Source: an uncultured Panacagrimonas sp. (GTDB taxonomy: Bacteria; Pseudomonadota; Gammaproteobacteria; Nevskiales; Nevskiaceae). Taken from it: DNA of 21,581 bases. The notes under the pieces were generated by a model that was not told the origin of the DNA, did no database searches, and was given only the letters and a program-made list of their open reading frames with translations. The stretch is taken from positions 1 through 21,581 of the forward strand of contig CAMLNE010000022.1 in the NCBI GenBank assembly GCA_946481265.1, in the 5' to 3' direction. The position numbers were made by a program, and so were the translations under genes. Below, in pieces: positions 2-21,347 of this stretch (position 1 is its first letter; the number at the start of each line of letters is the position of its first letter).

Positions 2-505
2 TTCGAAGCCTTCGCGCTCGCCGGTGAACTGATCGCCAACAGCATGGGCCTGGGATTCGCCCAGCTCGCCGATCCGGTGCGGGGCGTGAACACGCCGATC
101 GTCGGCCAGTTCCTGATCGTCGTGGCCAGCCTGCTGTTCATCGCCACCGGCGCGCACCTGACCCTGATCGAGGGCCTGGCGGCGAGCTTTCGCAACGGGC
201 CGGTCGCGCAGACCGTGCTCGACCTGTCCAGCGTGCGCCTGATGCTGGACTGGGCCGGCAGCCTGTTCGCCGGCGGCGTGCAGCTTGCCCTGCCGGTGCT
301 GGCCGCGATGCTGGCGGTGAACCTGGCGATCGGCGTCCTCGGCCGCTCCGCGCCGACCATCAACCTGCTGGCCGTCGGCTTCCCGCTGACCCTGGTGCTG
401 GGCCTGATGATGCTGCAGTCCCTGATGCCGGGCCTGGCCGACCTGCTGTCCAGCTGGCTGGACGGTGCCTGGCCGACGATGTCGAGCCTGGCCGGGGACG
501 GCTGA
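2..505 (+). CDS. fliR: Flagellar export protein FliR, C-terminal part
   Basis: FliR is an integral membrane part of the flagellar type III export gate, working with FliP, FliQ, FlhA and FlhB. The window opens inside the gene. The frame is open from base 2, and 167 residues remain of the roughly 260 usual for the family. The visible part begins with the conserved GELIANSMGLGFAQLADP segment, followed by long hydrophobic stretches (around residues 30-55, 80-100 and 110-135 of the fragment) that look like membrane helices. The stop is three bases before the flhB start, as expected for translationally coupled export-gate genes. The start and promoter lie outside the window. Identification is by recognised FliR motifs and by the adjacent flhB. 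Confidence 0.93.
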   Translation, partial: FEAFALAGELIANSMGLGFAQLADPVRGVNTPIVGQFLIVVASLLFIATGAHLTLIEGLAASFRNGPVAQTVLDLSSVRLMLDWAGSLFAGGVQLALPVLAAMLAVNLAIGVLGRSAPTINLLAVGFPLTLVLGLMMLQSLMPGLADLLSSWLDGAWPTMSSLAGDG

Positions 506-508
506 GCC

Positions 509-1651: not shown

Positions 1652-1654
1652 TCC

Positions 1655-1671
1655 GGCCCGGCGATCGGGCC
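1655..1671 (+). terminator. Hairpin just after flhB (possible terminator)
   Basis: GGCCCG and CGGGCC form a perfect 6-bp stem around a 5-base loop, starting four bases after the flhB stop. No T-run follows, so it would be at best a weak intrinsic terminator or an mRNA 3'-end stabiliser. Its position before a possible new promoter supports a transcript boundary here. Confidence 0.35.
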
Positions 1672-1681
1672 CCGGGACTGG

Positions 1682-1697
1682 AGGAACAGGAACTGCA
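1682..1697 (+). promoter_or_regulatory. Possible sigma-54 promoter for the GGDEF gene
   Basis: AGGAAC-N5-CTGCA has the GG and GC dinucleotides at the required 10-base spacing and matches 8 of 11 consensus positions of TGGCAC-N5-TTGCA. It lies 48 bases before the GGDEF start codon, so transcription would begin near 1709. Flagellar genes of polar gammaproteobacteria are commonly RpoN/FleQ-dependent, which makes the site plausible. A site of this quality can arise by chance in GC-rich DNA. Confidence 0.35.
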
Positions 1698-1744
1698 CGG
1701 CGCGCCCTGGGCCCCTTCGGGTATGCCCGGAGATTGACGCGCTG

Positions 1745-4615: not shown

Positions 4616-4620
4616 TCCGC

Positions 4621-4645
4621 GATTCGGGGCGCAGGGCCCCGGATC
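4621..4645 (+). terminator. Strong hairpin after the GGDEF gene
   Basis: GATTCGGGGC and GCCCCGGATC pair over 10 bp with one G-T wobble around a 5-base loop, beginning five bases after the GGDEF stop. There is no T-run. Position and stability suggest the 3' end of the cyclase transcript, ahead of a separate flhA promoter. Confidence 0.45.
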
Positions 4646-4709
4646 CGGCCCGAAGCTGCCTTCGTTCTCTCGCCTCTTCGAGGTGCTCCTGGAACCGCAA
4701 GGGCTGCCC

Positions 4710-4725
4710 TAGAACAGAACTTGCT
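4710..4725 (+). promoter_or_regulatory. Possible sigma-54 promoter for flhA operon
   Basis: TAGAAC-N5-TTGCT matches the sigma-54 consensus fully in the -12 half but has AG instead of GG in the -24 half. An overlapping alternative at 4690-4705 (TGGAAC-N5-GGGCT) keeps both GG and GC but has a poor -12 half. Either would start transcription 20-45 bases before the flhA start codon at 4758. The element resembles the one upstream of the GGDEF gene at 1682-1697. Confidence 0.35.
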
Positions 4726-4757
4726 CCGGTCCGGCTCCAAACGGCGCAGGGAGCAAG

Positions 4758-6821: not shown

Positions 6822-6831
6822 GGGGATCGTG

Positions 6832-8067
6832 ATGAAGATCAAGCGATTCATCGCCCCCAGCATGCGTGAGGCCATGCGCATGGTGCGCGAGGAGCAGGGC
6901 CCGGACGCCGTGATCCTGTCCAATCGCCGGCTCGAAAACGGCATCGAGGTCGTCGCCGCCACCGATTACGACGCCGCGCTGATCATGCAGGCCGCAGAGC
7001 GCAGCGAGCAGCCCGTCGCCGAAGTGCGCACGGCGGCCGTCTCCCGGCCGATCGAGATCGTGCCGGCACACGTGCCGCCGGTTGCCAGCATGTCCGCTCC
7101 GGCGGGCCCCGCGGCCGCCGACCTTGATGCGCTCAAGTCGGAGATGCAGTCGCTGCGTCGCCTGATGGAGCAGCAGGTCGCCGGCATGGCCTGGAACGAT
7201 CTCAAGACGCGCAACCCGGTCCGCGCCGACGTCGTGCGCCGTCTGATCTCGCTCGGCCTGGAGATGGGGCTGGCCCGCGAGATCGCCAGCGAGATTCCCG
7301 ACGGCACCGACGCCGAGCGCGCGCGCTTCCTGCCCTTGGCGCTGCTTGCCCGACGCCTGCCGACCTTCAAGCACGAGTGGCTGGAAGCGAATGCCACGCA
7401 GGGCGAGCCTCGCAACGAGGTGATCGCCCTGGTCGGCGCCACCGGCGTGGGCAAGACCACCACCATCGCCAAGCTCGCCGCCCGCTATGTACAGCATTGG
7501 GGCCTGCGCGACGTGGCGCTGATCACCACCGACCATTTCAGGATCGGCGCGCAGGAGCAGCTGTTCACCTACGGCCGCCTGCTCGGGGTGCCGGTGCTCA
7601 CCGCCGACAACCAGCGCGAGCTGTGCCTGGCGCTGGAGAAGCTCAAGGATCGCCGGCTGGTGCTGATCGATACCGCCGGCATGTCGCCGCGCGACCAGAA
7701 CCTGCACAAGCAGTTCGCCATGCTGTCCGGCCTGCCGGTGCCCAATCGCACGGCGCTGGTGCTGTCCGCGACCAGCCAGGCGGCGGACCTGGACGACCAG
7801 TACCGCCGCTTCGCCGCCGCCGGTCCCGGCGCGGTGATCCTCACCAAGCTCGACGAGGCCACCCGCGTGGGCGCGGCACTGTCGGCCGTCGTGCGCCAGG
7901 GCATCCCGCTGGGCTACGTGGCCGATGGCCAGCGTGTGCCGGAAGACCTCGCGGTGGCGCGTGCAGACCAGCTCGTCCTCAGGGCGATGGCGGCGTCGCG
8001 CACGAATGCGGCGACGCCCGACGATGAAGAGATGTCCCACCAGTTCGCAGGAGCGGTCCATGGGTAA
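6832..8067 (+). CDS. flhF: Polar flagellum placement GTPase FlhF
   Basis: FlhF is an SRP-type GTPase that marks the cell pole for flagellum assembly. The N-terminus MKIKRFIAPSMREAM is the usual FlhF B-domain start, followed by a variable linker to about residue 140 and an NG GTPase domain. The P-loop GATGVGKT is at residues 202-209; DTAGMSPRD and TKLDEATRVG supply later GTPase motifs. I chose the ATG at 6832 over the GTG one codon upstream because it gives the family N-terminus and better spacing (6 bases) from GAGGGG. Length is 411 residues. The 3' end overlaps flhG by 8 bases, so the two antagonists are probably translated together. FlhF indicates a polar flagellar pattern. Confidence 0.96.
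   Translation: MKIKRFIAPSMREAMRMVREEQGPDAVILSNRRLENGIEVVAATDYDAALIMQAAERSEQPVAEVRTAAVSRPIEIVPAHVPPVASMSAPAGPAAADLDALKSEMQSLRRLMEQQVAGMAWNDLKTRNPVRADVVRRLISLGLEMGLAREIASEIPDGTDAERARFLPLALLARRLPTFKHEWLEANATQGEPRNEVIALVGATGVGKTTTIAKLAARYVQHWGLRDVALITTDHFRIGAQEQLFTYGRLLGVPVLTADNQRELCLALEKLKDRRLVLIDTAGMSPRDQNLHKQFAMLSGLPVPNRTALVLSATSQAADLDDQYRRFAAAGPGAVILTKLDEATRVGAALSAVVRQGIPLGYVADGQRVPEDLAVARADQLVLRAMAASRTNAATPDDEEMSHQFAGAVHG
8049..8053 (+). promoter_or_regulatory. Ribosome binding site that fixes the flhG start
   Basis: AGGAG lies six bases before the ATG at 8060, inside the end of flhF. It supports this start over in-frame codons further upstream, and the resulting N-terminus carries the DQAxxLR motif. 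Confidence 0.7.
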
Positions 8068-8941
8068 CAGGAATGACCAGGCGGCAGGCTTGCGTGTGCT
8101 GCGCCCGGCCAAGCCGGTGCAGGTCATCGCGGTTGCCAGCGGCAAGGGCGGTGTCGGCAAGACCAGCGTTTCGGTCAACCTGTCGACGGCGATGGCCATG
8201 AGCGGCAAGCAGGTGATGCTGCTCGACGGCGACCTGGGCCTGGCCAATGTCGACGTGATGCTCGGCCTGCAGCCGACCTGCAACCTGGCCCACGTGCTGG
8301 CCGGGCAGTGCACGCTCGACGAGACGATCCTGCCGGGGCCCGCGGGCCTGATGGTGGTGCCGGCCTCGAGCGGCAAGAAGAACATGGCCGAGCTCAACCG
8401 CGCCGAGAACGCCGGCCTGATCCGCGCCTTCAGCGAGCTGTCCCGACCGCTCGACGTGCTGGTGGTGGACACTGCCGCGGGCATCGCCGACTCGGTGATC
8501 AGCTTCACGCAGGCGGCGCAGGAAGTGATCGTGGTGATCTGCAACGACCCGGCTTCGCTCACCGACGCCTACGCGCTGATCAAGGTGCTCAACCGCGACC
8601 ACGGCGTCGAACGCGTGCAGGTGCTGGCCAACATGGTGCAGAACCTCGCCGAGGCCCGGGAGATCCACGAGAACCTGCGCCGCGTGGCGGAGCGCTTCCT
8701 CGACGTCACGCTCAACTTCATGGGCTTCGTGCCGCAGGACGAGTGGCTCAAGCGCGCCATCCGCCGCCAGCAGCCGGTCGTGCAGGCCTATCCGAATTCC
8801 GCCGCCGCGCAGGCCTTCATCGGCCTGGCCAAGAAGGCGGAAGCCTGGGGCATGCCCAAGGGCGCGCGCGGCAACCTGGAGTTCTTCGTCGAGCGCCTGG
8901 TGAGCCGCGGCGAGGCGCAACTGGCCAGCATCGCGGTATGA
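8060..8941 (+). CDS. flhG: Flagellar number regulator, MinD-like ATPase FlhG (FleN)
   Basis: FlhG is a MinD/ParA-type ATPase that limits flagellar number by stimulating FlhF GTPase activity; in Pseudomonas (FleN) it also restrains FleQ. The frame is open upstream, but the ATG at 8060 has AGGAG six bases before it. It puts the known FlhF-activating motif DQAxxLR at residues 6-12, which decides the start. The deviant Walker A motif KGGVGKT is at residues 29-35. LLDGDLGLANVDVMLG and VVDTAAGIADSV are further family motifs. Length is 293 residues. The stop codon overlaps the fliA start as ATGA. A C-terminal amphipathic membrane-targeting helix is expected, and FFVERLVSR could be part of it, but this is inference. 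Confidence 0.96.
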   Translation: MGNRNDQAAGLRVLRPAKPVQVIAVASGKGGVGKTSVSVNLSTAMAMSGKQVMLLDGDLGLANVDVMLGLQPTCNLAHVLAGQCTLDETILPGPAGLMVVPASSGKKNMAELNRAENAGLIRAFSELSRPLDVLVVDTAAGIADSVISFTQAAQEVIVVICNDPASLTDAYALIKVLNRDHGVERVQVLANMVQNLAEAREIHENLRRVAERFLDVTLNFMGFVPQDEWLKRAIRRQQPVVQAYPNSAAAQAFIGLAKKAEAWGMPKGARGNLEFFVERLVSRGEAQLASIAV

Positions 8942-9678
8942 GCGCCCTGCCGCGGGAAGCCGTCGCGCGCTACCAGCGCGCCCAATCGCCGGACGCTGCG
9001 CTGATCGAACAGCACGCCGGACTGGTCAAGCGCATCGCCTACCACCTGGCGGCGCGCCTGCCTTCCAGCGTGGAGATCGACGACCTGGTCCAGGCCGGCA
9101 GCATCGGCCTGCTCGAGGCCGCCCGGAACTACCAGGGCGATCGCGGCGCGAGCTTCGAGACCTTCGCCGGCATCCGCATCCGCGGCGCCATGCTCGACGA
9201 ATTGCGCCGCGGCGACTGGGCCCCGCGCTCACTGCACCGGCGCGCGCGCGAGGTGGAAGGCGCGATGCGCGCCATCGAACAGCAGACCGGGCGCGAGGCC
9301 AAGGATGCCGAGGTCGCCGAGCGCCTGGGCATCGGCATGACCGAATACTTCGAGGCGGTCGCTGACGCGGCACGCTGCCAGGTCCTGTCGACCGACGGCT
9401 TCGACGACGGCGAGGGCTTCGATGCACCGGCCGAGGACGGCGACCCGGCCGGACATTTCAGCCGCGCCGAATTCCAGAGCGAACTGATCAAGGCCATCGC
9501 CGGCCTGCCCGAGCGCGAGAAGCTGGTGATGTCGCTGTACTACGAGCGCGAACTCAACCTCAAGGAGATCGGCAAGGTGCTGGACGTCAGCGAAAGCCGG
9601 ATCTGCCAGATCCACGGCCAGGCGCTGATACGCCTGCGAGCGCGGCTCGGCGACTGGGCCAGCGTCGCGCTGGATTGA
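8938..9678 (+). CDS. fliA: Flagellar sigma factor sigma-28 (FliA)
   Basis: FliA directs RNA polymerase to late flagellar genes such as flagellin and chemotaxis genes, and is held inactive by FlgM until the hook is complete. The protein has 246 residues, the usual size. Region 2 is at about residues 20-95 (VEIDDLVQAGSIGLLEA, RIRGAMLDELRRGDW), region 3 at about 100-150, and the region 4 helix-turn-helix near the C-terminus (LNLKEIGKVLDVSESRICQ). The start ATG overlaps the flhG stop. The next gene, cheY, lies 166 bases downstream beyond a palindromic AT-rich repeat, so fliA may end the export/regulator transcript. The target promoter motif (TAAA-N15-GCCGATAA) was not convincingly found in this window. 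Confidence 0.97.
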   Translation: MSALPREAVARYQRAQSPDAALIEQHAGLVKRIAYHLAARLPSSVEIDDLVQAGSIGLLEAARNYQGDRGASFETFAGIRIRGAMLDELRRGDWAPRSLHRRAREVEGAMRAIEQQTGREAKDAEVAERLGIGMTEYFEAVADAARCQVLSTDGFDDGEGFDAPAEDGDPAGHFSRAEFQSELIKAIAGLPEREKLVMSLYYERELNLKEIGKVLDVSESRICQIHGQALIRLRARLGDWASVALD

Positions 9679-9707
9679 GTGATCGAGCCGGCGAAAAAAA
9701 AGCATTC

Positions 9708-9809
9708 AACGCAAAGGGCGCAAAGGAAAAGAAAGAACGCAAAGAAAGCGGGAAAGTCGAAAAAAGGATCTTTGCGTCCTCTTTTTTTTCTCCTTTGCGT
9801 CTTTGCGTT
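9708..9809. repeat. Imperfect palindromic CGCAAAG-heptamer repeat element
   Basis: The fliA-cheY gap contains a long inverted repeat. The left arm (9708-9745) and right arm (9769-9809) are near reverse complements and both carry copies of CGCAAAG (CTTTGCG on the right). The left arm begins AACGCAAAGGGCGCAAAGG and the right arm ends CCTTTGCGTCTTTGCGTT. The loop is about 23 bases. Runs of A on one side and T on the other make this far more AT-rich than its neighbours. It looks like a dispersed intergenic repeat; I recall similar CGCAAAG repeats in other proteobacterial genomes but cannot confirm that here. As RNA it would form a large hairpin with a T-run (9781-9789) inside the 3' arm, so it could affect fliA-cheY readthrough. 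Confidence 0.85.
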
Positions 9810-9844
9810 AGCCGTTTTCTTCTTCGAGATACCGGGAAAAGAGC

Positions 9845-10237
9845 ATGGACAAGAATCTGAAGATCCTGATCGTGGATGACTTCTCGACGATGCGGCGCAT
9901 CGTCAAGAACCTGCTGGCCGATCTGGGCTATGCCAACACGCAGGAGGCGGACGATGGCCGCACGGCCTGGCCGCTGCTGCAGGCCGGTGGCTTCGACTTC
10001 GTCGTGACCGACTGGAACATGCCGGGTATGAGCGGCATCGACCTGCTCAGGGCGATCCGCGGCGAGCCCAAGCTGGCCTCGCTGCCGGTGCTGATGGTGA
10101 CCGCCGAGGCCCAGCGCGAGCAGATCATCGAGGCGGCCAAGGCCGGTGTGAACGGCTACATCATCAAGCCCTTCACCGCGGTCACGCTCAAGGAAAAGCT
10201 CGACAAGATCTTTGCACGCCTGGCCGAAACGGCCTGA
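9845..10237 (+). CDS. cheY: Chemotaxis response regulator CheY
   Basis: CheY is the single-domain response regulator that, when phosphorylated by CheA, binds FliM in the flagellar switch to change rotation. The protein is 130 residues and is all receiver domain. Acidic residues D11 and D12, phosphoacceptor D56 ([12 protein letters not shown]), T86, Y105 and K108 (GYIIKPF) match the known active-site set. The start has GGGA seven bases upstream, right beside the palindromic repeat that fills the space after fliA. cheZ follows after 18 bases, so phosphorylation partner and phosphatase are made together. Confidence 0.97.
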
Positions 10238-10255
10238 TCCAGGGGAGTCCGACCC

Positions 10256-10993
10256 GTGAACGCTCCCTTTCCGCCGGATCCGGCGCGCGCCGAGCAGCTG
10301 CGCCGCCTGCGCGCACTCGTCGCCCTGCTGGAGGCCGGTGACGATGCCGCCTTCGAAAGCGGGTTCGCAAGCCTGTTGCACGCGCGCGAGCAGGGCCTGT
10401 TCGTGAGCGTCGCGCGTCTGACCCGCGAGCTGCACGACGCCATGCGCGAGCTGCGCTTCGACGAACAGCTCTCCAGCCTGGCCGGGCGCGAGATCCCGGA
10501 TGCCTGCTCGCGGCTGGACTATGTCACGCGCGTGACCGAGGAAGCCGCGCACAAGACGCTCGACCTGGTCGAGGAGTGCCAGCAGCTGACGCAGGAGATT
10601 GCGCTGGCCACCCACGATCTGTCGGCTGCCTGCAGGCGCGCCCAGATCTACGCCGGTTCGCCGTACTCGGTGGCCGGCCTGGTGGTCAATGTCGACGAGA
10701 CGCGCGAGCACATCGGCAACAATGCGGCCGAGCTGCGCGATCGCCTGTCGCGGCTCGCGCAGGCGCAGGAGTACCAGGACCTCGCGGGGCAGGTGATCAA
10801 GCGCGTCACGCAGCTGGTCCGAAGCGTCGAGCACGCCCTGATCGAGCTGCTGCGCGCCTCCGGCGGCGCGCCGGCGGCGCGCCCGTTCGAGGCGCCGGCC
10901 AACGGCCTGCACGGCCCCGAGGTGACCGGCGTCACGCCCGCGGCAGTGAGCCAGGACGCGGCCGACTCGCTGCTCGCCGAACTGGGGTTCTGA
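10256..10993 (+). CDS. cheZ: CheY-P phosphatase CheZ
   Basis: CheZ removes the phosphate from CheY-P and so sets the adaptation speed of the switch. The 245-residue protein is mostly helical. The catalytic helix signature AQEYQDLAGQVIKR matches the AQDFQDLTGQ segment of enterobacterial CheZ, which carries the catalytic Gln. The C-terminus ADSLLAELGF matches the CheY-tethering peptide (DDLLDSLGF type). The linker between them is Pro/Ala-rich. The start is a GTG with AGGGGAG eight bases upstream; no better in-frame ATG exists nearby. The stop is four bases before the cheA start. CheZ is typical of beta/gammaproteobacteria, which fits the proposed host. Confidence 0.95.
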   Translation: MNAPFPPDPARAEQLRRLRALVALLEAGDDAAFESGFASLLHAREQGLFVSVARLTRELHDAMRELRFDEQLSSLAGREIPDACSRLDYVTRVTEEAAHKTLDLVEECQQLTQEIALATHDLSAACRRAQIYAGSPYSVAGLVVNVDETREHIGNNAAELRDRLSRLAQAQEYQDLAGQVIKRVTQLVRSVEHALIELLRASGGAPAARPFEAPANGLHGPEVTGVTPAAVSQDAADSLLAELGF

Positions 10994-10997
10994 GCCG

Positions 10998-12962
10998 ATG
11001 CCTGCCATCGACGACGAAATCCGCGCCGACTTCCTGGTGGAGGCCGGCGACCTGATCGAGAAGCTGGGTGGCCAGCTGGTCGAGCTCGAGTCGCGTCCGG
11101 ACGACGCCGAGCTGCTCAATGCGATCTTCCGCGCCTTTCACACGGTCAAGGGCGGCGCCGGGTTCCTCGGTGTCACCGCGCTGGTGGAGCTCTGCCACGC
11201 CACCGAGGACGTCTTCAACGCGCTGCGCAATGGCCGGCGCGCGGTCGATGCGACGCTGATGGACGCGGTGCTGCAGGCGGTGGACCTGGTGCAGGCAATG
11301 ATGGCCAGCGTCGCCTCCGGCACCGATCCGCAGGCCGCACCGCCCGAGCTGGTCGAAGGACTGCACGCGCTGCTGCAGGAAACGTCAGCCGCGGTGACGG
11401 TTGCCGCCGCGCCGGCCGCACCCGTCGTCGCTGCGGTCGCATCGTCCGACACGATCAGCGAGGACGAGTTCGATGCGCTGCTCGACAAGCTCGACGCCGA
11501 CAAGAAGGCCGCAGCGAAGCCCTCGGACACCATCACCGAGGACGAATTCGACGCCCTGCTGGACAAGCTGGACGCGGACAAGAAGGCGCAGCAGGCCAGG
11601 CCCGGCAAGGGCGTCGACAAGAACTTGATCACCGAGGACGAGTTCGACGCGCTGCTCGACAAGCTCGATGCCGAGAAGAAGGCCGCGAAGAAGGTGGGCC
11701 CGGCCGTGACGGACGCCGCCACGGCGGCGGCGCCCAAGGCCGGCCCCGCGCCATCTCCCGCACCGGCGTCCGCGACCACGCAGGCCGAGACCTCGGTCCG
11801 CGTCGACACCGTCAAGCTCGACCGCATGATGAACCTGGTCGGCGAGCTGGTGCTGGTGCGCAACCGGCTCAAGGCGCTGGCACTGGCGGCCGGTGGCGAT
11901 GTCGGTCGCGCGGTGCGCGAGCTCGACTTCATCACGCGCGGATTGCAGGGCGCGGTGATGCAGGTGCGCATGCAGCCGATCGGCAAGGTGTTCGCACGCT
12001 TCCCCAAGCTGGCGCGCGACGTCGCGCGTGGCCTGGGCAAGCAGGTCGAGGTGAGCCTGGTCGGGCAGGAAACGGATCTCGACAAGAATCTGGTCGAGGC
12101 TCTTGCCGACCCGCTCGTGCACATGGTGCGCAACAGCGTCGATCACGGCATCGAGATGCCCGAGCTGCGCCTGGCGCGCGGCAAGCCGGCCGCCGGCCAG
12201 CTCCGGCTCGAGGCGCGCCAGGAGGGCGATCACATCCGCATCACGGTGCGTGACGACGGCGCGGGTATCGATCCCGAGCGCGTGCGCACCAAGGTGGTGG
12301 AAAAGCGGCTGATGGACGCCGCGACCGCCGCGCGCCTGTCGCCCGAGGAATGCCTGCAGCTGATCTTCCTGCCCGGCTTTTCGACGCGGGAACAGGTCAG
12401 CGACCTGTCCGGGCGCGGGGTGGGCATGGACGTGGTCAAGCAGCGCATCCAGTCGCTCAACGGCAGCGCGCTGATCGAGTCGCAGCCGGGGCAGGGCAGC
12501 GCGGTGCACCTGCGCGTACCGCTCACCCTGGCGATCCTGCCGGCGCTGATGATCGATGCCGGCCAGCGCCAGTTCGCATTGCCGCTGGCGATGGTGGCCG
12601 ATGTGTTCGCGCTGGACCCGAGTGTCGTGCGCCGGCTCGGCCACTGGGACGTGGTTCCGCTCAAGCGCGAGAACCTGCGCGTGATCGACCTTGAAGTTTG
12701 GGCCGGTGCTGCCGATACCACGGGTACCAGACACGTGGTGGTAGTCATGATCGGTGAAGAACGTTACGGATTGATCGTTCGCCAGGTGCGCGGTCGCGAG
12801 GAGGTGGTGATCAAGCCGCTGGGTCCGACCCTGAGGGGATTGGCGGGAGTGGCGGGCGCCACGGTGACGCCGCAGGGCCGCGTCGCGCTGATCGTCGACG
12901 TGCCGGGGCTGGTCCAGGCGCATGCCCACGCCGGCCTGCGTGCCGCGGATCCGGCGTCCTAG
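10998..12962 (+). CDS. cheA: Chemotaxis histidine kinase CheA with triple acidic-helix linker
   Basis: CheA autophosphorylates in response to chemoreceptors and passes phosphate to CheY. The P1 Hpt domain (about 1-105) has the phosphorylated His at residue 48 (FRAFHTVKGGAGF). I see no P2 domain. Instead residues 153-229 hold three copies of EDEFDALLDKLDA, followed by an Ala/Pro linker (about 235-265). Next come the P3 dimerisation helices from about 270 and the P4 kinase domain, with the N box at HMVRNSVDHG (from residue 375), DDGAGID, and GRGVGMDVV. The C-terminal P5 CheW-like domain ends at residue 654. The catalytic parts look intact. The start is an ATG four bases after cheZ, with no strong ribosome site, suggesting coupled translation. 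Confidence 0.97.
   Translation: MPAIDDEIRADFLVEAGDLIEKLGGQLVELESRPDDAELLNAIFRAFHTVKGGAGFLGVTALVELCHATEDVFNALRNGRRAVDATLMDAVLQAVDLVQAMMASVASGTDPQAAPPELVEGLHALLQETSAAVTVAAAPAAPVVAAVASSDTISEDEFDALLDKLDADKKAAAKPSDTITEDEFDALLDKLDADKKAQQARPGKGVDKNLITEDEFDALLDKLDAEKKAAKKVGPAVTDAATAAAPKAGPAPSPAPASATTQAETSVRVDTVKLDRMMNLVGELVLVRNRLKALALAAGGDVGRAVRELDFITRGLQGAVMQVRMQPIGKVFARFPKLARDVARGLGKQVEVSLVGQETDLDKNLVEALADPLVHMVRNSVDHGIEMPELRLARGKPAAGQLRLEARQEGDHIRITVRDDGAGIDPERVRTKVVEKRLMDAATAARLSPEECLQLIFLPGFSTREQVSDLSGRGVGMDVVKQRIQSLNGSALIESQPGQGSAVHLRVPLTLAILPALMIDAGQRQFALPLAMVADVFALDPSVVRRLGHWDVVPLKRENLRVIDLEVWAGAADTTGTRHVVVVMIGEERYGLIVRQVRGREEVVIKPLGPTLRGLAGVAGATVTPQGRVALIVDVPGLVQAHAHAGLRAADPAS
11454..11684 (+). 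repeat. Three in-frame repeats in the CheA linker
   Basis: Three 19-residue units, each starting I(S/T)EDEFDALLDKL and ending KKA, begin at CheA residues 153, 179 and 211 (11454, 11532 and 11628). They are nearly identical in protein but differ at synonymous positions, so they are not a very recent copy. The units are separated by 7 and 13 residues rich in Lys, Ala and Pro. Each is predicted to be an amphipathic helix. The sequence resembles the FliM N-terminal CheY-binding peptide (SQ(A/D)EIDALL). Confidence 0.9.
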
Positions 12963-12984
12963 CGCTCCGGCCCCGGAGATCCCG

Positions 12985-13122
12985 ATGAATTCGCGAGCCC
13001 GCTCTGGCGATGGGCAGGACATGAGAACCCGACAGACCGGACCCGTGGCCAGGAAGCGCATTACCGCCAGACCTCGAAAGGCATCGCGAACCCGCGTGCG
13101 GATTTCCGGAAAGGGACGTTAA
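12985..13122 (+). CDS. Possible 45-residue basic peptide (doubtful)
   Basis: This short open frame sits in the 164-base gap between cheA and motC. It has GGAG six bases before its ATG and stops four bases before the motC start. The 45-residue product is very Arg-rich with no recognised domain. GC-rich DNA often yields such frames by chance, so this may be only a leader or noise. Its main interest is the close coupling to motC and a 15-base match to the start of motD. Confidence 0.15.
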   Translation: MNSRARSGDGQDMRTRQTGPVARKRITARPRKASRTRVRISGKGR

Positions 13123-13126
13123 GAAC

Positions 13127-13867
13127 ATGGACATCCTCAGCATCGTCGGCTTCATCCTGGCGCTGGTCGCGCTCATCGGCGGCTCGATCCTCAAGGGCTC
13201 GGGCGTCGGCGCGCTATGGGGCCCGGCTGCCTTCGTCATCGTCATCGTCGGCACCTTCGGCTCGATCACGGTGCAGACGCCGCTGCAGACGTTCAAGCAC
13301 GGCATGAAGATGGCCCGCTGGGTGTTCCTGCCGCCGTCGCTGGACGGGCGGGGACTGATCGCCAAGATCGTCGAGTGGAGCAACGCGGCGCGCAAGCAGG
13401 GTCTGCTCGCGCTCGAGGGCAACATCGCCACCGAGACCGATGCCTTCATCCGCAAGGGCCTGCAGATGCTGGTCGACGGCGCCGAGCCCGAGACCATCCG
13501 CAACACGCTGGAAACCGAGATGCAGGCCAAGGAGCACTTCGACCTGATGGGTGCCAAGGTCTGGGAGGGCATGGGCGTCTACGCGCCGACGCTGGGCATC
13601 ATCGGCGCGGTGATGGGACTGATGGCGGTGATGCAGAACCTCAACGATCCCTCCAAGCTCGGCCACGGCATCTCGGCGGCGTTCATCGCCACCATCTACG
13701 GCATCGCCTCGGCCAACCTGTTCTTCCTGCCGATGGCGTCCAAGCTCAAGAGTGTGGTTGGCGACCAGACGCGCGTGCGCGAGATGATCATCGAAGGCCT
13801 GATCGCGATCTCGCAGGGCGAGAACCCGCGCGTGATCGAGACCAAGCTGCATGGGTTCCTGCATTGA
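13127..13867 (+). CDS. motC: Flagellar stator proton-channel subunit MotC (MotA family)
   Basis: MotA-family proteins form, with their MotB-type partner, the proton-driven stator that turns the flagellum. The 246-residue protein has two N-terminal helices (about 4-22 and 32-48), a cytoplasmic loop, and two C-terminal helices (about 152-172 and 183-203). P154 (VYAPTLGIIGAVMGL) and P202 (LFFLPMASKLK) correspond to the conserved prolines of MotA. I name it MotC because it is paired with a MotD-type protein inside the che cluster, as in Pseudomonas; annotation as MotA would also be fair. The ATG has AAGGGA ten bases upstream. The cheB gene expected before it in Pseudomonas-type clusters is missing. 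Confidence 0.93.
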   Translation: MDILSIVGFILALVALIGGSILKGSGVGALWGPAAFVIVIVGTFGSITVQTPLQTFKHGMKMARWVFLPPSLDGRGLIAKIVEWSNAARKQGLLALEGNIATETDAFIRKGLQMLVDGAEPETIRNTLETEMQAKEHFDLMGAKVWEGMGVYAPTLGIIGAVMGLMAVMQNLNDPSKLGHGISAAFIATIYGIASANLFFLPMASKLKSVVGDQTRVREMIIEGLIAISQGENPRVIETKLHGFLH

Positions 13868-13902
13868 ACGCGGGGATGCCGCCGGCGGGAAGCGGGAACC
13901 GT

Positions 13903-13921
13903 CAGGGCGCGCGCCGCCCTG
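13903..13921 (+). other. Hairpin in the motC-motD gap
   Basis: CAGGGCG and CGCCCTG form a perfect 7-bp stem with a 5-base loop in the 161-base gap between motC and motD. No T-run follows. It may protect the motC message or adjust the motC:motD ratio. I see no other clear signal in the gap. Confidence 0.3.
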
Positions 13922-14028
13922 CACAGCCCCGCTGCGTTCGCGACATCCCGTCCGCAGGCCGCGACGTTGGTGTGCGCGACCGTTCCACGATTGCCGACTG
14001 CCGCGTCGCGGCTCCCGGCGGCTGAGCC

Positions 14029-14964
14029 ATGGCCAGGAAGCGCAAGCACGAAGACCACGTCAACCACGAGGCCTGGGCGATTCCCTACGGTGACCTGATC
14101 ACCCTGCTGCTCGCCTTCTTCGTGGTGATGTATTCGATGTCGTCGGTCAACGAGGGCAAGTACCGCGTGCTGTCGGATTCGCTCAACGCGGCCTTCGGTG
14201 GTGCGCCACGCTCACCCTCGCCGATCCAGGTCGGTCCGAAATCCACCCGTACCAGCAACGATCCGCGGCCGCGCGTGCTGCAGGGCTCGCCGCCGCACCC
14301 GGGCATGCGCGGCTCGAGCGCGGCGGTGATCAAGCCCGACCTGCCCGGCCTGAGCCGCCTGCACAAGGCGGGCGAGGGCGCGCGGCGGGCCACGGTCAGT
14401 GCGCGCCAGCGCGAGCAGCTCGAGCAGATGTCGGACAAGGTCTACGACGCGCTCGGCGACCTGATCCGGCAGAAGCAGGTGCTGGTGCGTCGCTACGAGG
14501 AATGGCTGGAGATCGAGATCCAGACCGACATCCTGTTTGCCAGCGGCTCCTCGCGTCTGGACGCGGCCGCCGGCAGCGTGCTCGATCGCCTCGGCGGCGT
14601 CCTGGGCGAGTTCGACAACCGGCTGCGCATCGAAGGCCATACCGATGACATGCCGATCGCCACGCGCGAATTCCCGTCGAACTGGGAGCTGTCCAGCGCG
14701 CGTGCCGCCAGCGTCGTCCATCGCTTCATGGCGCGCGGGGTCGAGCCACGGCGCATGACCGTGATGGGCCTGGCCGAATATCAGCCGGTGGCCGAGAACA
14801 CCGACGCCGGAAGTCGCAACCGCAACCGGCGCGTGGTGATCGTGGTGCTCGCCGGTGACGACGGCCGGTTTCCCCTGACGGCCGCCCTCACGCCGCGGGA
14901 CGCCGCACCGCCGCCGGCGAGCGGTCCCTCGATCGCCTCCACCCGGGAGCACGCAGCACCATGA
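14029..14964 (+). CDS. motD: Flagellar stator anchor subunit MotD (MotB family)
   Basis: MotD is the MotB-like stator half that carries the proton-binding Asp and anchors the stator to peptidoglycan. The N-terminus has a short basic cytoplasmic stretch and one membrane helix, IPYGDLITLLLAFFVVMYSM, in which D22 is the expected proton-binding residue. A flexible Pro/Ser-rich linker (about 55-125) leads to an OmpA-like domain (about 165-275) with GHTDD at 203-207 and NWELSSARA at 218-226, both peptidoglycan-binding signatures. Length is 311 residues. An in-frame TGA six bases upstream excludes a longer start; the ribosome site is weak. The stop overlaps the cheW start as ATGA. Confidence 0.94.
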   Translation: MARKRKHEDHVNHEAWAIPYGDLITLLLAFFVVMYSMSSVNEGKYRVLSDSLNAAFGGAPRSPSPIQVGPKSTRTSNDPRPRVLQGSPPHPGMRGSSAAVIKPDLPGLSRLHKAGEGARRATVSARQREQLEQMSDKVYDALGDLIRQKQVLVRRYEEWLEIEIQTDILFASGSSRLDAAAGSVLDRLGGVLGEFDNRLRIEGHTDDMPIATREFPSNWELSSARAASVVHRFMARGVEPRRMTVMGLAEYQPVAENTDAGSRNRNRRVVIVVLAGDDGRFPLTAALTPRDAAPPPASGPSIASTREHAAP

Positions 14965-15452
14965 ACGCATCGGTCGCGGTCCAGCCCACTCACATCGACA
15001 GTGTCCGCGAGGGCGACACGGGCCGCCCGGGCGACGTGGTGCGTCGCTGGATCGGCTTCGAACTGGCCGGGCAGCTGTACGGCGTGCCGATCCTCGCCGT
15101 GCAGGAAGTGCTGGCCACCGCGGAGATCGAGCCTGTCCCCGGCACTGCGTCGGAGGTGCTGGGCGTGATCAACCTGCGCGGGCAGATCGTCACCGTGATC
15201 GACCTGCGCCGTCGGCTCGGGCTGCCCGCGGCGGCCGAAGCGGCCGACGGCCCGCTGGTGGTCTTCGACGCGCCCGGCGAGACCCTGGCCGCGCGCGTCG
15301 ATCGCGTCACCCATGTGCGGCGCATCCCCGATCCGGCGATCAAGCCGGTGCCACGCACCGGGACCACGCCCTGCGCTGCCGTGCTGGGCCTGGTCTCGCG
15401 CGACGCCGAATTAATGACACTGCTCGACGTTCCCGCGCTGATGCACGCCTGA
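14961..15452 (+). CDS. cheW: Chemotaxis coupling protein CheW
   Basis: CheW links chemoreceptors to CheA in the sensory array. This is a 163-residue single CheW domain. Recognisable parts are GFELAGQLYGVPILAVQEVL (about 31-50), the conserved GVINLRGQIVTVIDLR segment near residue 70, and ARVDRVTHV near residue 112. The start overlaps the motD stop. A hairpin directly after the stop probably closes the operon. Leu151 is encoded by TTA, a codon that looks very rare in the surrounding GC-rich genes. A plain CheW is more likely than the longer ParP type, because there is no extra N-terminal Pro-rich region. Confidence 0.94.
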   Translation: MNASVAVQPTHIDSVREGDTGRPGDVVRRWIGFELAGQLYGVPILAVQEVLATAEIEPVPGTASEVLGVINLRGQIVTVIDLRRRLGLPAAAEAADGPLVVFDAPGETLAARVDRVTHVRRIPDPAIKPVPRTGTTPCAAVLGLVSRDAELMTLLDVPALMHA

Positions 15453-15483: not shown

Positions 15484-15682
15484 AAATCGACGCTCAGGTA
15501 GGGGGAACCCCGACGCATCTTCCGCCGGGACCGCTGGCGCGTCCGAATATCGGCGCACCACCACCTGAACCAAGTAGCGGTTGCAATCTCGATGCCAGGA
15601 CATCGGGTGCAGCCGGGCAAGGCGCACCGGAGTCCATCCAGGAATCCTTTCGGACGGCGGGCGATGCTGGCATCGACCGCAT

Positions 15683-15687
15683 GGAGG
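15683..15687 (+). promoter_or_regulatory. Ribosome binding site deciding a GTG start
   Basis: GGAGG lies six bases before the GTG at 15694. It selects this codon as the start of the lipoprotein gene over upstream in-frame ATGs at 15592 and 15664, which would place a long hydrophilic stretch before the signal peptide. Confidence 0.7.
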
Positions 15688-15693
15688 TCGCCG

Positions 15694-16404
15694 GTGCCGT
15701 TCCCCCGTGTGCTCATGCTGCTGATGCTGGGAACCCTGCTGGGCGGCTGCGCCGCGCCCAAGCACCGTCCGTACGATCCGGCGGCGCGGACCAAGATCCA
15801 CCGCATCGGCCTGCTGACGCCGGCGGTGTCGGACGAGGTGGCGGTGCGCATGAAGGTGCACCCCGGTCGCAGCTTCGGCGTGGTCGGCATGCTGCTGGCC
15901 GAGGGCGACATGGACGACAAGACCGGCACCTTCACGCGCGCGACCCAGGAGCGGGGCTTCATCTGCAGCCAGAGCTTCCGGCGCCAGCTGGACGCCGGCC
16001 TGCGCATGGCCGGCTACGAGGTGCGCGCCATGAACGTGCCGCGGCCGCAGGGCCAGAGCGAATTCCTCGACCAGTATCCCGTGGACGACGGCAGCGTCGA
16101 CGCCTACCTGGACGTCTACACCGACCTGGTCGGCTACACCGCCACCAGCGGCGGCACGCCGTATCGCCCCACGGTGTACCTGAACGTGCGGCTGGTGCGC
16201 GCCGTGGATCACCGGGTGCTCTACCAGGACCGCATCAGCTACAACGCCTTCGGCGATGGCGGCGGCGCCATCACGCTCACCGCGGACCAGGACTACGAGT
16301 TCCGCGACTTCGACCAGCTGGTGGCGGAGCCGGCGCGCGCGGTGGAAGGCCTGCAGATGGCGATGCAGGCCACCGGCGACGAGCTCGTCCGGCAGCTGCG
16401 TTGA
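15694..16404 (+). CDS. Predicted outer-membrane or periplasmic lipoprotein, unknown family
   Basis: This 236-residue protein starts at a GTG with an excellent GGAGG six bases upstream. The signal peptide is short (residues 1-18) and ends in a lipobox, LLGGC, with the lipidated Cys at residue 19. The mature part is soluble and mixed alpha/beta in character. It has segments such as HRIGLLTPAVSDEV, a Cys at ERGFICSQSF, and AYLDVYTDLVGYTA that I cannot assign to a family. Its stop overlaps the start of a second lipoprotein gene (TTGA), so the two are probably made together. The position after the chemotaxis operon terminator gives no functional link to motility. I do not recognise a function. Confidence 0.8.
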   Translation: MPFPRVLMLLMLGTLLGGCAAPKHRPYDPAARTKIHRIGLLTPAVSDEVAVRMKVHPGRSFGVVGMLLAEGDMDDKTGTFTRATQERGFICSQSFRRQLDAGLRMAGYEVRAMNVPRPQGQSEFLDQYPVDDGSVDAYLDVYTDLVGYTATSGGTPYRPTVYLNVRLVRAVDHRVLYQDRISYNAFGDGGGAITLTADQDYEFRDFDQLVAEPARAVEGLQMAMQATGDELVRQLR

Positions 16405-17208: not shown

Positions 17209-17254
17209 CTCCCGCATGCCGCCCGCCGGCACGAAAAGAACAGGGAGAGCCTCG

Positions 17255-17749
17255 ATGCTTGCCAGACGGCCGCGGTCCGCGCGCTTCGTCGCGGTGCTGC
17301 TGGCCCTTGCCGGCCTGCTGCTGCCTGCCGTGCGCGCCGCCGAGATCGGCCCGGGCATGGAGCAGGGCGCCCTGGCCGCGCAGCTGGTCGGACACGAGCG
17401 CGTGGCCTGGAAGGCCTACGCGAAGCGCGATATCGAGGGCAGCCGCCCGCTGTTGGCGGCCGATTACGCCGACGTGCAGACCGACGGCTCGGTGCTCGAC
17501 CGCGAAGGCCACCTGGCCTTCGTGCCCGAGGCTAACCTCGAGTGGTACGAGCTCGATCGCTTCCACGTCTTCCTGCTGTCTGCCGACGCCGCACTGGTCA
17601 CCTACCGCGCTCGCGCTCGCGAGCGCGCCAGCACCGAGACCTACCAGGCCGACGTGACCTCCGGCTGGTCACGGCGCGAGCAGCGCTGGGTCAACACCTT
17701 TTACCGCGAAACCCCCACCGTCCCGGACGGACCGGGCGTGGCGCCGTAG
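17255..17749 (+). CDS. Secreted NTF2-like (DUF4440/SnoaL type) protein
   Basis: This 164-residue protein has a Sec signal peptide (Arg-rich n-region, hydrophobic core at about 12-24, likely cleavage after AVRA at about residue 27). The mature part looks like an NTF2-fold DUF4440 domain: an N-terminal helix with WKAYAKRDIEGSRPLLAADY, then strands around DVQTDGSVLDREGHLAF, and a C-terminal SGWSRREQRWVNTFYRE. Members of this fold bind small molecules or act as simple enzymes, so no reaction can be named. I chose the ATG at 17255 because AGGGAG lies seven bases upstream; the ATG at 17216 would add a hydrophilic extension. It lies 50 bases before the Tat-signal gene, on the same strand, suggesting a shared transcript. 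Confidence 0.8.
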   Translation: MLARRPRSARFVAVLLALAGLLLPAVRAAEIGPGMEQGALAAQLVGHERVAWKAYAKRDIEGSRPLLAADYADVQTDGSVLDREGHLAFVPEANLEWYELDRFHVFLLSADAALVTYRARARERASTETYQADVTSGWSRREQRWVNTFYRETPTVPDGPGVAP

Positions 17750-17799: not shown

Positions 17800-20316
17800 A
17801 TGGGGACTCGACGGGAATTTCTGACACAGGCCTTGTGGACGGGCGGCGCGACGATGGCCTTCCACTCGCGTGCCTTCGCGCTGTTCGGATCCGCCACGAC
17901 GCCGCTGATCGAGCCGGTGCGGGCCGCCTGCAAGCGCCTGGCCGCAGCCGGCTGGCGCGAGCTGCTGCTGCGTGCCAGCGGCGGCGCGCTGGACATCGGC
18001 GCCGCCGACCTGGCCGCCGAGCTGAACAAGGTGCTGGGCGTGGACCGCAGCCTTGCGGGCTTCGCGGATTTTGCCTCGGCAGGGCAGCGCGGCGTGGAGC
18101 CGGGCAGCCCCGCTCGCAGCCTGCTCTACCATGCCTTCGCCTCGCCGGACGTGCTCGACGACAGCCTGCTCGAGTACCCGACGCTGGCCGAGATCGAGGC
18201 GCTCGAGAACTACGTCTACGGGGCGCGCCCGGCGGTGTGGGCCGACCTGCAGGCGATGGCCGGCGAGCATCCGCTCGGCATCGTGATGCTGGCCCTGCAA
18301 TACCGGCCGGCGCGCGACACCGTCGGCAGGCGCCACGCCGATCTGGTGTTCTCGCGGACCGGCATCTCGCGCATGGGCACGCTGCCGCCGGTGTACGACG
18401 CCCGGGCGCGCAACTTCGTGGCGACCGTCGACGACAAGCCCTACGACTTCCCTGCGATCCCGCAACGCTTCGCGCCCTTTCTCGCGATCCGCGTCCCCGG
18501 CGATGACCCGCGGCTGGCCGTGCTCGACCCGCAGAAGGGAGACGAGGAGCGCGCCTTCTGGCTGCCGGTGCACAAGCTCTTCAGCGGTGCCGAGTGCGTG
18601 GCCGGACACAGGCTGAAGGTCGAACTGGGCTGCGCGTTCCGCAACGAGAAGCTGCGGCGCTTCCACCGCTTCCTGCAGCTCAACGGCTATCCCACGGAGT
18701 GGGTCGGCGAGGATCTCGAGCAGTTCCCGTTCGTGATGCGCGACGAGCAGATCGCCGCGTTCTCGAAGACGGCCGCATTCGGCCCGGGCGTGGTCGAGCC
18801 GCGCGCGGCGCCGTTCGTGAACCGCGCCAGGTACAAGGGCGAGTGGCTCGGCTTCCAGGTGCCGCAGGAGTGGGTGGCCACCGATGGCGTGGTGTACTTC
18901 TCCAGCGCCCAGATCCTCGGCGGCGAGGCGGATACCGAGGAGGATTTCCACAAGGGGGAGTTCCTGTATCTAGAGGGCGCGGGGGCCGACTACGACCGCA
19001 ACGCGCCGGAGTACGTCAGCCTGCGACACCGCCTGCGCGAGGACGGCACGCTGGAGGATCTGAACGCGAACCCGGAGATGCGCGGGCTGATCCGCGCCGG
19101 CGGCTACAAGGCGCAGCACTTCATCGACTACGCCGGCGATGGCTGGGTGGAAGGCCGCGTCGAAGGTCTGCCCGCCGACCTGCCGCGCATGGCCGCCTAC
19201 GCGCCGGTATCGCCGCCGGATTTCTTCCCGCTGGTAAGCCAGCACGACCTGATGGACTGGTGGACCACCGAGGTCCCGGCCGCGATCCGCGACGGCCTGT
19301 GGGCGATTCCGCCGTATGCCTTGTCGGGCCGGCGCATGGCACCCAACGTGGAGCTGCCGATCGGCTTTTCGATCTACGACGTCGGCGCCAGCGCGGTGGT
19401 CGGCCGCGCGCAGGATGCGCCGGGTTCGACCTTGCCCCGGCTTCCCGCGTCGAACGCGTCGCGCTACTCCGGCCTGCCGGACCATTCGCCGGGTCTGTTC
19501 GATCCGGGCTGGGACGTCAGCCAGGGCCTGCTCTACAACAATCCGGAGGAGGGCCTGCAGGCCTTCCTGCAGAACCATGGCCTGGGCACGCCCTTCGTCG
19601 AGGACGTCAAGCTGTGCGCGGCGCTGGGCTCGTACTGGCCGGCGATCGCGCCGGATTCGACGCGCAGCTTTTCGCCGCTGAAGAAGGCCACCGGCTACAG
19701 CTATCCCTGGCCGACCATCGTGCCGCTCACCGACGCCGAGACCGGCATCGAGCCGGTCGATGGCCGCTTCCTTCCCTGGGACGGCGTACGCGGTCCGCAG
19801 ATCGTCGAGGTGGATGGCCGGCGCCTGGTCGAATACGCGGATATCGACCGCGTCGACTACGCCGCGATGCCGGACACCATGACCATCGCGCAGCTGGCCC
19901 GGATCGACCTGGCCGAGACCAAGGCGCGCGTGCTGGCGATGGCCGCGGTGTACTGGGCGTTGGGCATCCGCGACGCGGATTTCCGCAAGCGCTATCCGAA
20001 GAGCAAGGGTCGGGTCCTCACCGAGATCACGCGGGCCAAGGCCGGCTGGGCGGTGAGCTCGTTCCGTGCGCTGCGCGAGGACGAGGCTGAGCTGGTGGAG
20101 GCGCAGCGGCAGCTCGGCGTGAAGCTCGCCGCCGAGGGGCCGCGCTACCGCTTCCACGTCTACCGTCCCGGCGAAGAGCGCGCGCACCCCGAGGACATGC
20201 GCAAGGTGCGCGTGTCGATCAAGGAAGAAGCCGTCGCCTTCGTCGATGCCAGGCAGGTGTTGATCCGTCGCGGCAACAAGACATGGAAGCGCGACCTGTC
20301 GATGCCGAGGTCCTGA
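17800..20316 (+). CDS. Tat-exported LodA-like putative quinoprotein oxidase
   Basis: This 838-residue protein begins with a twin-arginine signal (TRREFLTQAL, then a modest hydrophobic stretch to AFALFG, about residue 31). It should therefore be exported folded, as cofactor proteins often are. I assign it tentatively to the LodA/GoxA-like amino-acid oxidases, mainly because a LodB-like flavoenzyme gene overlaps its end. Segments such as PVHKLFSGAECVAGHRL and NEKLRRFHRF seem consistent, from memory. The C-terminal third contains VKLCAALGSYWPA, with C606 and W613, and a further Trp at 637 (YPWPTI). LodA proteins carry cysteine tryptophylquinone made from a Cys and a Trp; which residues would serve here is unproven. 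The ATG at 17800 has AGGGGGAGAG just upstream. If not LodA-like, it is a large periplasmic protein of unknown function. Confidence 0.6.
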   Translation: MGTRREFLTQALWTGGATMAFHSRAFALFGSATTPLIEPVRAACKRLAAAGWRELLLRASGGALDIGAADLAAELNKVLGVDRSLAGFADFASAGQRGVEPGSPARSLLYHAFASPDVLDDSLLEYPTLAEIEALENYVYGARPAVWADLQAMAGEHPLGIVMLALQYRPARDTVGRRHADLVFSRTGISRMGTLPPVYDARARNFVATVDDKPYDFPAIPQRFAPFLAIRVPGDDPRLAVLDPQKGDEERAFWLPVHKLFSGAECVAGHRLKVELGCAFRNEKLRRFHRFLQLNGYPTEWVGEDLEQFPFVMRDEQIAAFSKTAAFGPGVVEPRAAPFVNRARYKGEWLGFQVPQEWVATDGVVYFSSAQILGGEADTEEDFHKGEFLYLEGAGADYDRNAPEYVSLRHRLREDGTLEDLNANPEMRGLIRAGGYKAQHFIDYAGDGWVEGRVEGLPADLPRMAAYAPVSPPDFFPLVSQHDLMDWWTTEVPAAIRDGLWAIPPYALSGRRMAPNVELPIGFSIYDVGASAVVGRAQDAPGSTLPRLPASNASRYSGLPDHSPGLFDPGWDVSQGLLYNNPEEGLQAFLQNHGLGTPFVEDVKLCAALGSYWPAIAPDSTRSFSPLKKATGYSYPWPTIVPLTDAETGIEPVDGRFLPWDGVRGPQIVEVDGRRLVEYADIDRVDYAAMPDTMTIAQLARIDLAETKARVLAMAAVYWALGIRDADFRKRYPKSKGRVLTEITRAKAGWAVSSFRALREDEAELVEAQRQLGVKLAAEGPRYRFHVYRPGEERAHPEDMRKVRVSIKEEAVAFVDARQVLIRRGNKTWKRDLSMPRS

Positions 20317-21347
20317 TCGTCGGCGGCGGGCCGGCGGGCTGCGCCGCCGCCCTGGGCTGCGTGCGCCATGGGCTGCGCACGATCCTGCTCGAACGCGACG
20401 TGCAGGCACGCGGCAAGCCGGGCGAGGGCCTGCACCCGGGCATCGAGCCGCTGCTGCACGACCTCGACGCCGCCGACCTGCTGCACGAGGCGACGCGTGC
20501 GCGTTTCGCCGGTGTCGAGGTGGCCTGGGGCGATGCCCCCCGCTTCGAGGCCTTCGGACAGGACGAGCGCGGGCCCTGGCTCGGCTTCCAGGTTCAGCGC
20601 TCGGCGCTCGATGAGGCGCTGCGCCGGCGCGCGCAAGAGCGCGGCGTCGAGGTCCGCGTCGGCGTCGCCGCGCTCGGCGTGATCAAGGACGACGACGGCG
20701 TGGCCGGCGTGCGGCTCGGGCACGGCGGGTCGCTGCGTTCGCGCCTGCTGATCGACGCGAGCGGTCCGGCACGCTGGCTCGGCCGTCGACTGGGCCTCCA
20801 GGATCGCCACTGCTCGCCGCGCCAGAGCGTGCGCTACGGCTACGTGCGAGGTCGCTGCCCGGATCGCGATGCGACGCCCGCCTTGCTCGGCGACGCCACC
20901 GGATGGACCTGGACCGCCCGCGTCGACAGCGGGCTCTACCAGTGGGCACGGCTCGACTTCGAGCCGGTCGGGCGCGCGCACGACTGGCTGCCGCAGGCGT
21001 TCGCCGGGATGGCGCGGGTGGGCGCAAGCCGCGGCGCCGACGCCACCTGGCGGGTGACACCGGCCGCGGGTGCCGGCTGGCTGATCGCGGGCGATGCTGC
21101 CGCGAACCTCGATCCCACCTCGTCGAAGGGCGTGCTCAAGGCACTGCTGTCGGGAACCATGGCCGCGCGAACGGCGGCGGCGATCCTGCGGCGCGGGGCC
21201 GATGCCGCCCAGGGCGCCCGGGCCTATCGCGCGTGGATGGACGGATGGTTCGACAGCGAGGTCGCGGCGCTCGCGCCGATGTATGCGCGGCTCGGGGCGA
21301 GCGGGTATGGAAGACGGCGGACCCCGGACCTCGACCGGGCCACGTGA
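20283..21347 (+). CDS. LodB-like FAD-dependent monooxygenase (halogenase superfamily)
   Basis: This is a 354-residue flavoprotein. The FAD-binding GGGPAG is at residues 14-19 after a beta strand, followed by LLERD at the end of the second strand. The second FAD motif AGDAAANLDPTSSKG lies at about 269-283. GWTWTARV (W208, W210) corresponds to the WxWxIP motif of flavin halogenases but lacks its Ile and Pro, so hydroxylation is more likely than halogenation. LodB and QhpG of this superfamily modify a Trp in a partner protein during CTQ formation. The gene overlaps the end of the large Tat-signal gene by 34 bases and has no strong ribosome site, implying coupled translation and partnership. No signal peptide is seen, so it would act in the cytoplasm before Tat export of the partner. 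Confidence 0.75.
   Translation: MEARPVDAEVLIVGGGPAGCAAALGCVRHGLRTILLERDVQARGKPGEGLHPGIEPLLHDLDAADLLHEATRARFAGVEVAWGDAPRFEAFGQDERGPWLGFQVQRSALDEALRRRAQERGVEVRVGVAALGVIKDDDGVAGVRLGHGGSLRSRLLIDASGPARWLGRRLGLQDRHCSPRQSVRYGYVRGRCPDRDATPALLGDATGWTWTARVDSGLYQWARLDFEPVGRAHDWLPQAFAGMARVGASRGADATWRVTPAAGAGWLIAGDAAANLDPTSSKGVLKALLSGTMAARTAAAILRRGADAAQGARAYRAWMDGWFDSEVAALAPMYARLGASGYGRRRTPDLDRAT

Follow-up and report, generated by a model that had tools for sequence, protein, structure and literature searches.

Two overlapping genes of the forward strand are described here from a 21,581-nucleotide stretch of DNA (the window) of an uncultured Panacagrimonas sp. (GenBank assembly GCA_946481265.1, contig CAMLNE010000022.1, positions 1 to 21,581). 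The first, at 17800..20316, encodes a large protein of 838 amino acids that begins MGTRREFLTQALWTGGATMAFHSRAFA and is a predicted cysteine tryptophylquinone (CTQ) quinoprotein. The second, at 20283..21347, encodes a leaderless flavoprotein of 354 amino acids that begins MEARPVDAEVLIVGGGPAGC and is its predicted peptidyl-tryptophan hydroxylase, or CTQ maturase. AGGGGGAGAGCAC and the ribosome-binding-like AGGGGGAGAG stand just before the first ATG of the large gene, and a mechanically called open reading frame (ORF) of 924 amino acids from 17542 is the same frame extended upstream. The 34-base overlap of the genes (20283..20316), noted in the original prediction made for this DNA, is confirmed by the ORF coordinates. 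To our knowledge CTQ enzymes are few and fall into two groups, quinohaemoprotein amine dehydrogenase (QHNDH) and the LodA/GoxA family. Both are described as CTQ enzymes in passages of PMC7876137.

The large protein has 389 relatives at E<=1e-3, its own copy included, among 7997 candidates scored from a protein database, and 120 of these matches were listed. Named entries among the 120 are nearly all called 'hypothetical protein' or 'twin-arginine translocation signal domain-containing protein', the nearest named genome among the matches listed is that of Panacagrimonas perspica (82% identity), and searches of open-access papers found no description or study of the family. Among genome contigs, 155 stretches were matched by pattern, 84 of which encode a relative; 80 were kept and gave 78 loci (L numbers), with titles that name Pseudomonadota, Streptomyces, Paenibacillus, cyanobacteria, planctomycetes, Nitrospira, acidobacteria, Bacteroidota, Verrucomicrobiota and a gemmatimonad. 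An alignment of 93 rows was chosen from the 120 proteins and the 78 loci and includes sequences with as little as about 30% identity to the window protein; a subset of 58 of these rows was used for the model scans.

In 75 of the 78 loci phmmer found a same-strand flavoprotein gene next to the large gene, downstream in 72 and upstream in three, and that of L074 was found with a hidden Markov model (HMM), bringing the linked loci to 76 of 78. In L052 the contig ends 326 bases past the large gene, and in L077, where the large gene is itself cut at a contig end, no flavoprotein gene is present in about 8 kb downstream. The genes overlap in 44 of the 61 loci that have a rule-assigned start, and in 20 of these the overlap is 31 or 34 bases long; the 34-base overlap of the window pair suggests translational coupling. 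Two of the three loci with an upstream flavoprotein gene have another gene between the pair; genes for about 390-400 amino acids without a Pfam match lie in this position at L066:6759-7955 and L071:1709-2881, and a relative of them in L040 has a start that is cupredoxin-like by eye. An Edaphobacter locus (L060) carries two large genes in tandem (5362-7809 and 7968-10400) with one flavoprotein gene, and one maturase may there serve two quinoproteins.

The large protein had been described as LodA-like, a claim that stands in part. It matches no Pfam or NCBIfam family at E<=1, LodA/GoxA models included, and phmmer and profile searches of the PDB sequences gave no match. Among the 58 relatives there was one LodA_N match at E 0.0093 and one LodA match at E 0.058, both under the cut-off where scores are shown. 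The predicted structure, when compared with known structures, has a LodA/GoxA-like fold between residue 159 and about residue 708, with residues 36-158 and about 709-838 lying outside most structural matches. For comparison at the level of profiles, eight LodA-family proteins were used of ten LodA_N matches, L084 being dropped for its unclear frame and L088 for its two stops. Alignment of the two families by hhalign scored 50.5 (probability 67%), where 100 column shuffles gave 29.3 at most, and sits on the segment D443-P477 (19126..19230), where DGWV..AY..V.PPDFFP aligns to the LodA-family DG.V.A....PPDYAP. An HMM of the eight proteins matches relatives at this segment too, the best value being 4.4e-7 among 169 family members. 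BLASTP from the eight to the same set reached at best E 3.9e-4; a 2015 survey gathered GoxA BLASTP matches at 1e-10 (PMC4417212), and would therefore miss this family. The profile or structural similarity on which the LodA-like description had been staked is thus half present: the family models fail, whereas profile-profile and structural comparison succeed. The conserved D..C..W site described below also supports the description. We place the family beside LodA/GoxA, as a sister branch of similar predicted fold, and not within it.

The proposed CTQ site consists of D602 (19603..19605), C606 (19615..19617) as the putative thioether partner and W613 (19636..19638, in WPAIAPD) as the putative quinone-forming tryptophan, and all three are invariant in 93/93 rows of the alignment. 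The pattern ED-x-[KR]-x-CA-x5-8-WP-[AGS]-x-x-PD is present in 120/120 listed proteins, a fairer count than one from the loci since these were fetched with patterns holding part of the motif. Six residues separate the cysteine from the tryptophan in 57/58 relatives; L075 fails the pattern. The eight LodA-family proteins share D-x3-C...W-[PA]-[AP]-x-x-P, in which at least 14 residues separate Cys from Trp, and hhalign on slices cut round the site placed D..C..WPA on the LodA-family D..C..W with E 0.0026-0.029 and a probability of just 1.7-11.5%. W660, which lies 54 residues after C606, had been a candidate for the counterpart of LodA W581 and was dropped for W613 because the alignment of the eight LodA-family proteins puts their invariant tryptophan in W-[PA]-[AP]-x-x-P after the cysteine.

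A second likeness is to QhpC, the QHNDH subunit in which Cys37 and Trp43 form CTQ (PMC7876137, in part). The QhpC of L089 reads DPGWE...EADLYGCSDPCWWPAQVPD. When five QhpC sequences, four of which closely resemble one another, were aligned with the family profile, the score of 27.1 lay above 100/100 column shuffles (maximum 24.8) at a probability of 8%, and with a single QhpC 1/40 letter shuffles scored higher. The five-sequence alignment runs from DPGWE through WPAQVPD; it places F567-DPGW-D572 (19498..19515), in which P569, G570 and W571 are invariant in the 93 rows, on DPGWE and W613 on the tryptophan of WWPAQVPD. By eye, the same F567-D572 segment resembles the LodA-family F-x-PG-x-[ED]. 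The QH_gamma model does not match the large protein and matches 3/58 relatives weakly (best E 0.0096, cut-off not reached), in a scan in which one relative is matched by an unrelated model at 5.7e-5; the QH_gamma match of L065 (residues 526-592) covers its motif at 567. An Asp beside the cofactor is reported in passages of PMC7876137 to be strictly conserved in tryptophylquinone enzymes, GoxA Asp678 being equivalent to QhpC Asp33, and a GoxA Asp678 mutant to still form CTQ. D602 fits the place of this residue.

The flavoprotein is matched by the NCBIfam models of QhpG (97.9 bits, cut-off 240), GoxB (94.6, cut-off 400) and LodB (66.3, cut-off 400), in each case below the cut-off. Its predicted structure (predicted local distance difference test score 93.4) has the fold of flavin adenine dinucleotide (FAD) halogenases and of QhpG. 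With numbering matched by motif, three QhpG residues, Glu42 at the FAD site and the re-face pair Trp181 and Trp183, have counterparts in E48 (20424..20426), W208 and W210 (W208-T-W210, 20904..20912). The first is Glu in 76/77 family flavoproteins and 8/8 comparators, and the two tryptophans are conserved in 77/77 and 76/77 respectively, the window's own flavoprotein included; the effect of mutating QhpG Glu42 is described in part of PMC7876137. Downstream DNA was taken for seven LodA-family proteins. The seven LodB-type comparators have WxY in six cases and WxI in one. FAD-dependent halogenases carry a WxWxIP motif. The flavoprotein reads W208-T-W210-T-A-R, which bears out the degenerate form of this motif noted originally. 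A tree of 50 of the 77 family flavoproteins and eight comparators put the family on its own branch, with the placement of QhpG and LodB left unsure by long branches (L074, QhpG and the LodB of Kordia); this tree and that of the large protein were quick searches supported by the Shimodaira-Hasegawa-like approximate likelihood ratio test (SH-aLRT) only. The proposal of a LodB/QhpG-type partner is therefore supported by the model matches, conserved residues and fold, with scores that lie under the cut-offs.

The large protein begins with a twin-arginine leader of about 30 residues (17800..17889), consisting of TRREFL and a hydrophobic stretch. A twin-arginine leader is assigned by rule to 111/117 listed homologues of 780 amino acids or more, own copy included, and the remaining six look shortened or late-starting by eye. 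The large protein itself is unmatched by TIGR01409 and PF10518 at E<=1, and among the 58 relatives 15 match TIGR01409 (best 4.8e-5) and six PF10518 (best 0.0015). The sequence and the homologues agree with the twin-arginine translocation (Tat) signal that had been predicted. In a tree of the 93 rows one branch (SH-aLRT 100) holds 51 rows, 50 of them with the leader and the window protein among them (the Tat clade), and the relatives outside it mostly start near residue 36 of the window protein. The leader as labelled changes seven times on the tree, six times forced by supported branches. Four outside rows that the rule flagged (L028, L048, L070 and L073) do not carry a genuine leader by eye, since the motif falls in the mature part or before a likelier start, and they were not counted. 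A Brevundimonas protein outside the clade (L072:732-3149) has a twin-arginine leader of its own, seemingly a separate gain. The accompanying claim, that no Tat signal is present in the LodA/GoxA enzymes studied so far, was wrong: Marinomonas mediterranea GoxA has a typical twin-arginine signal (PMC3948610), and the motif is present in all but three GoxA group II proteins (PMC4417212), according to passages of these papers, and for this reason the leader was rejected as the new feature of the family. Since the flavoprotein has no leader, maturation would precede export if the Tat leader works.

Taken together, the two genes probably constitute a CTQ maturation cassette whose product is exported by Tat and is most likely an amine or amino-acid oxidase. 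The analysis itself establishes the order and linkage of the genes, the conserved residues, the LodA/GoxA-like predicted fold and the leader sequence, while the cofactor, its formation ahead of export, export itself and the oxidase activity are inferred. On this reading the flavoprotein would bind FAD and act in the cytoplasm on the large protein as a peptidyl-tryptophan hydroxylase. Oxygenation of W613 and its bonding to C606 would yield the CTQ, with D602 alongside, and the completed protein would then leave the cytoplasm folded. Outside the cytoplasm its substrate would be a primary amine or an amino acid, which it would deaminate with O2, releasing H2O2. Production of H2O2 by LodA and GoxA is described in PMC4417212 and PMC3948610.

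Next to the oxidase in our judgement, though unlikely, is a CTQ dehydrogenase that, like QHNDH, would use a periplasmic cytochrome or cupredoxin as its electron acceptor and make no H2O2. Several observations favour it over an oxidase, namely the Cys-Trp loop of six residues, which is near that of QhpC (five) and not the 14 or more of the LodA-family proteins, the QhpG-like WxW of the flavoprotein, and the intervening gene of L066 and L071 with its cupredoxin-like relative. Set against these, the fold matches are to the O2 users LodA and GoxA, and in the neighbour clusters of three or more loci no cytochrome gene was recognised by eye as belonging with the Tat clade. Genes clustering with peroxidases near 8/78 loci (four animal-haem and four DyP; L042, L054, L063, L078 and L045, L060, L061, L073) would also fit H2O2, as a raw count. 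The assignment was confirmed in L042, L078, L045 and L060, two of each type. None of the eight loci is in the Tat clade, and these peroxidases, which lie near leaderless relatives, may use or remove H2O2 there.

It is also improbable that the quinone forms on another invariant tryptophan, W660 or W571, or that a different Trp or Cys modification is made. Both residues are as invariant as W613 (93/93), which tells against our assignment, but only W613 aligns with the invariant tryptophan after the LodA-family Cys and with that of WWPAQVPD in QhpC. There is very little chance that the large protein is a LodA-fold protein without a cofactor, in a structural or binding role. The lack of any study of the family in open-access papers and of any matching model leaves room for such a role, whereas the invariance of D602, C606 and W613 down to about 30% identity and the retention of the FAD-site residues in the flavoprotein argue for a cofactor. 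A small-molecule halogenase or hydroxylase beside an unrelated exported protein is similarly improbable in the extreme, given that the pair is linked across several phyla, that the partner has a LodA-like fold, and that A-R replaces the I-P of halogenases, the same Ala being found in 7/8 CTQ-maturase comparators.

Upstream of the pair, a gene for a DUF4440 protein (17216..17749, + strand; PF14534, E 1.7e-7) ends 50 bases before the large gene, with which it may share a transcript, and two genes on the same strand are lipoprotein-like by eye, one at 15592-16404. By tblastn over the loci collected, the DUF4440 gene and the lipoprotein-like gene at 15592-16404 recur only in the Panacagrimonas loci L001 and L002. 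Most of the window (44-15452) is given over to genes that by eye look flagellar or chemotaxis-related, among them FlhB, FlhA, FlhF and CheA, and no connection between them and the quinoprotein pair was seen. A search of clusters of three or more loci for a gene neighbour common to the Tat clade found none besides the flavoprotein. A recurrent gene, PLKLLPGVWKSEGRGWNMIALPF (L033:6774-7901), adjoins leaderless relatives in seven loci, and its L033 copy has no Pfam match at E<=0.01.

The pair looks like an uncatalogued branch of tryptophan-quinone enzymes with features of both known groups. With LodA/GoxA and their partners LodB/GoxB it has in common the predicted fold, the DG.V.A..PPD..P segment, the D-x3-C...W-[PA]-[AP]-x-x-P motif, a neighbouring flavoprotein gene and, as in parts of PMC4417212 on GoxA group II, a Tat leader. 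It differs from them in its escape from the LodA/GoxA models, in the shorter Cys-Trp loop, and in flavoproteins that form a separate branch with WxW in place of WxY or WxI. With QHNDH it shares the segment DPGW[DE]...D-x3-C-x5/6-W-P-A-x-x-P-D and a maturase with GWxWxAR, but the large protein is a single chain of 838 amino acids, compared with the 104 positions of a gamma model whose cut-off is unreached, and has a Tat leader where QhpC, in passages of PMC7876137, has a leader of its own, a protease and an ABC exporter. No gene for QhpA, QhpB or the radical-SAM QhpD was recognised by eye among the ORFs of the window, and no family scan was made over all neighbours. The variant FAD halogenases CndH, Bmp2 and CmlS resemble the flavoprotein in fold, and are set apart by their WxWxIP and by the linked quinoprotein-like partner found here.

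The joint presence of the DPGW[DE]...D-x3-C-x6-W-P-A-x-x-P-D core, a LodA/GoxA-like fold and a QhpG-like WxW flavoprotein raises the tentative and rather doubtful idea that the family links both CTQ groups. On this view the QHNDH gamma subunit and LodA/GoxA would share a cofactor-bearing segment inherited from an ancestor, and the flavoproteins that hydroxylate Trp would go back, together with their substrates, to one system and not to convergence. If this were true, the Tat clade would do in one exported chain the job of the several subunits and maturation enzymes of QHNDH. The short Cys-Trp loop and WxW maturase offer a test case for whether the known CTQ systems share descent or arose by convergence, and the Tat clade one for whether a tryptophan-quinone protein is matured before folded export. 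A third CTQ branch would enlarge the pool of protein-derived quinone enzymes and of peptidyl-tryptophan hydroxylases.

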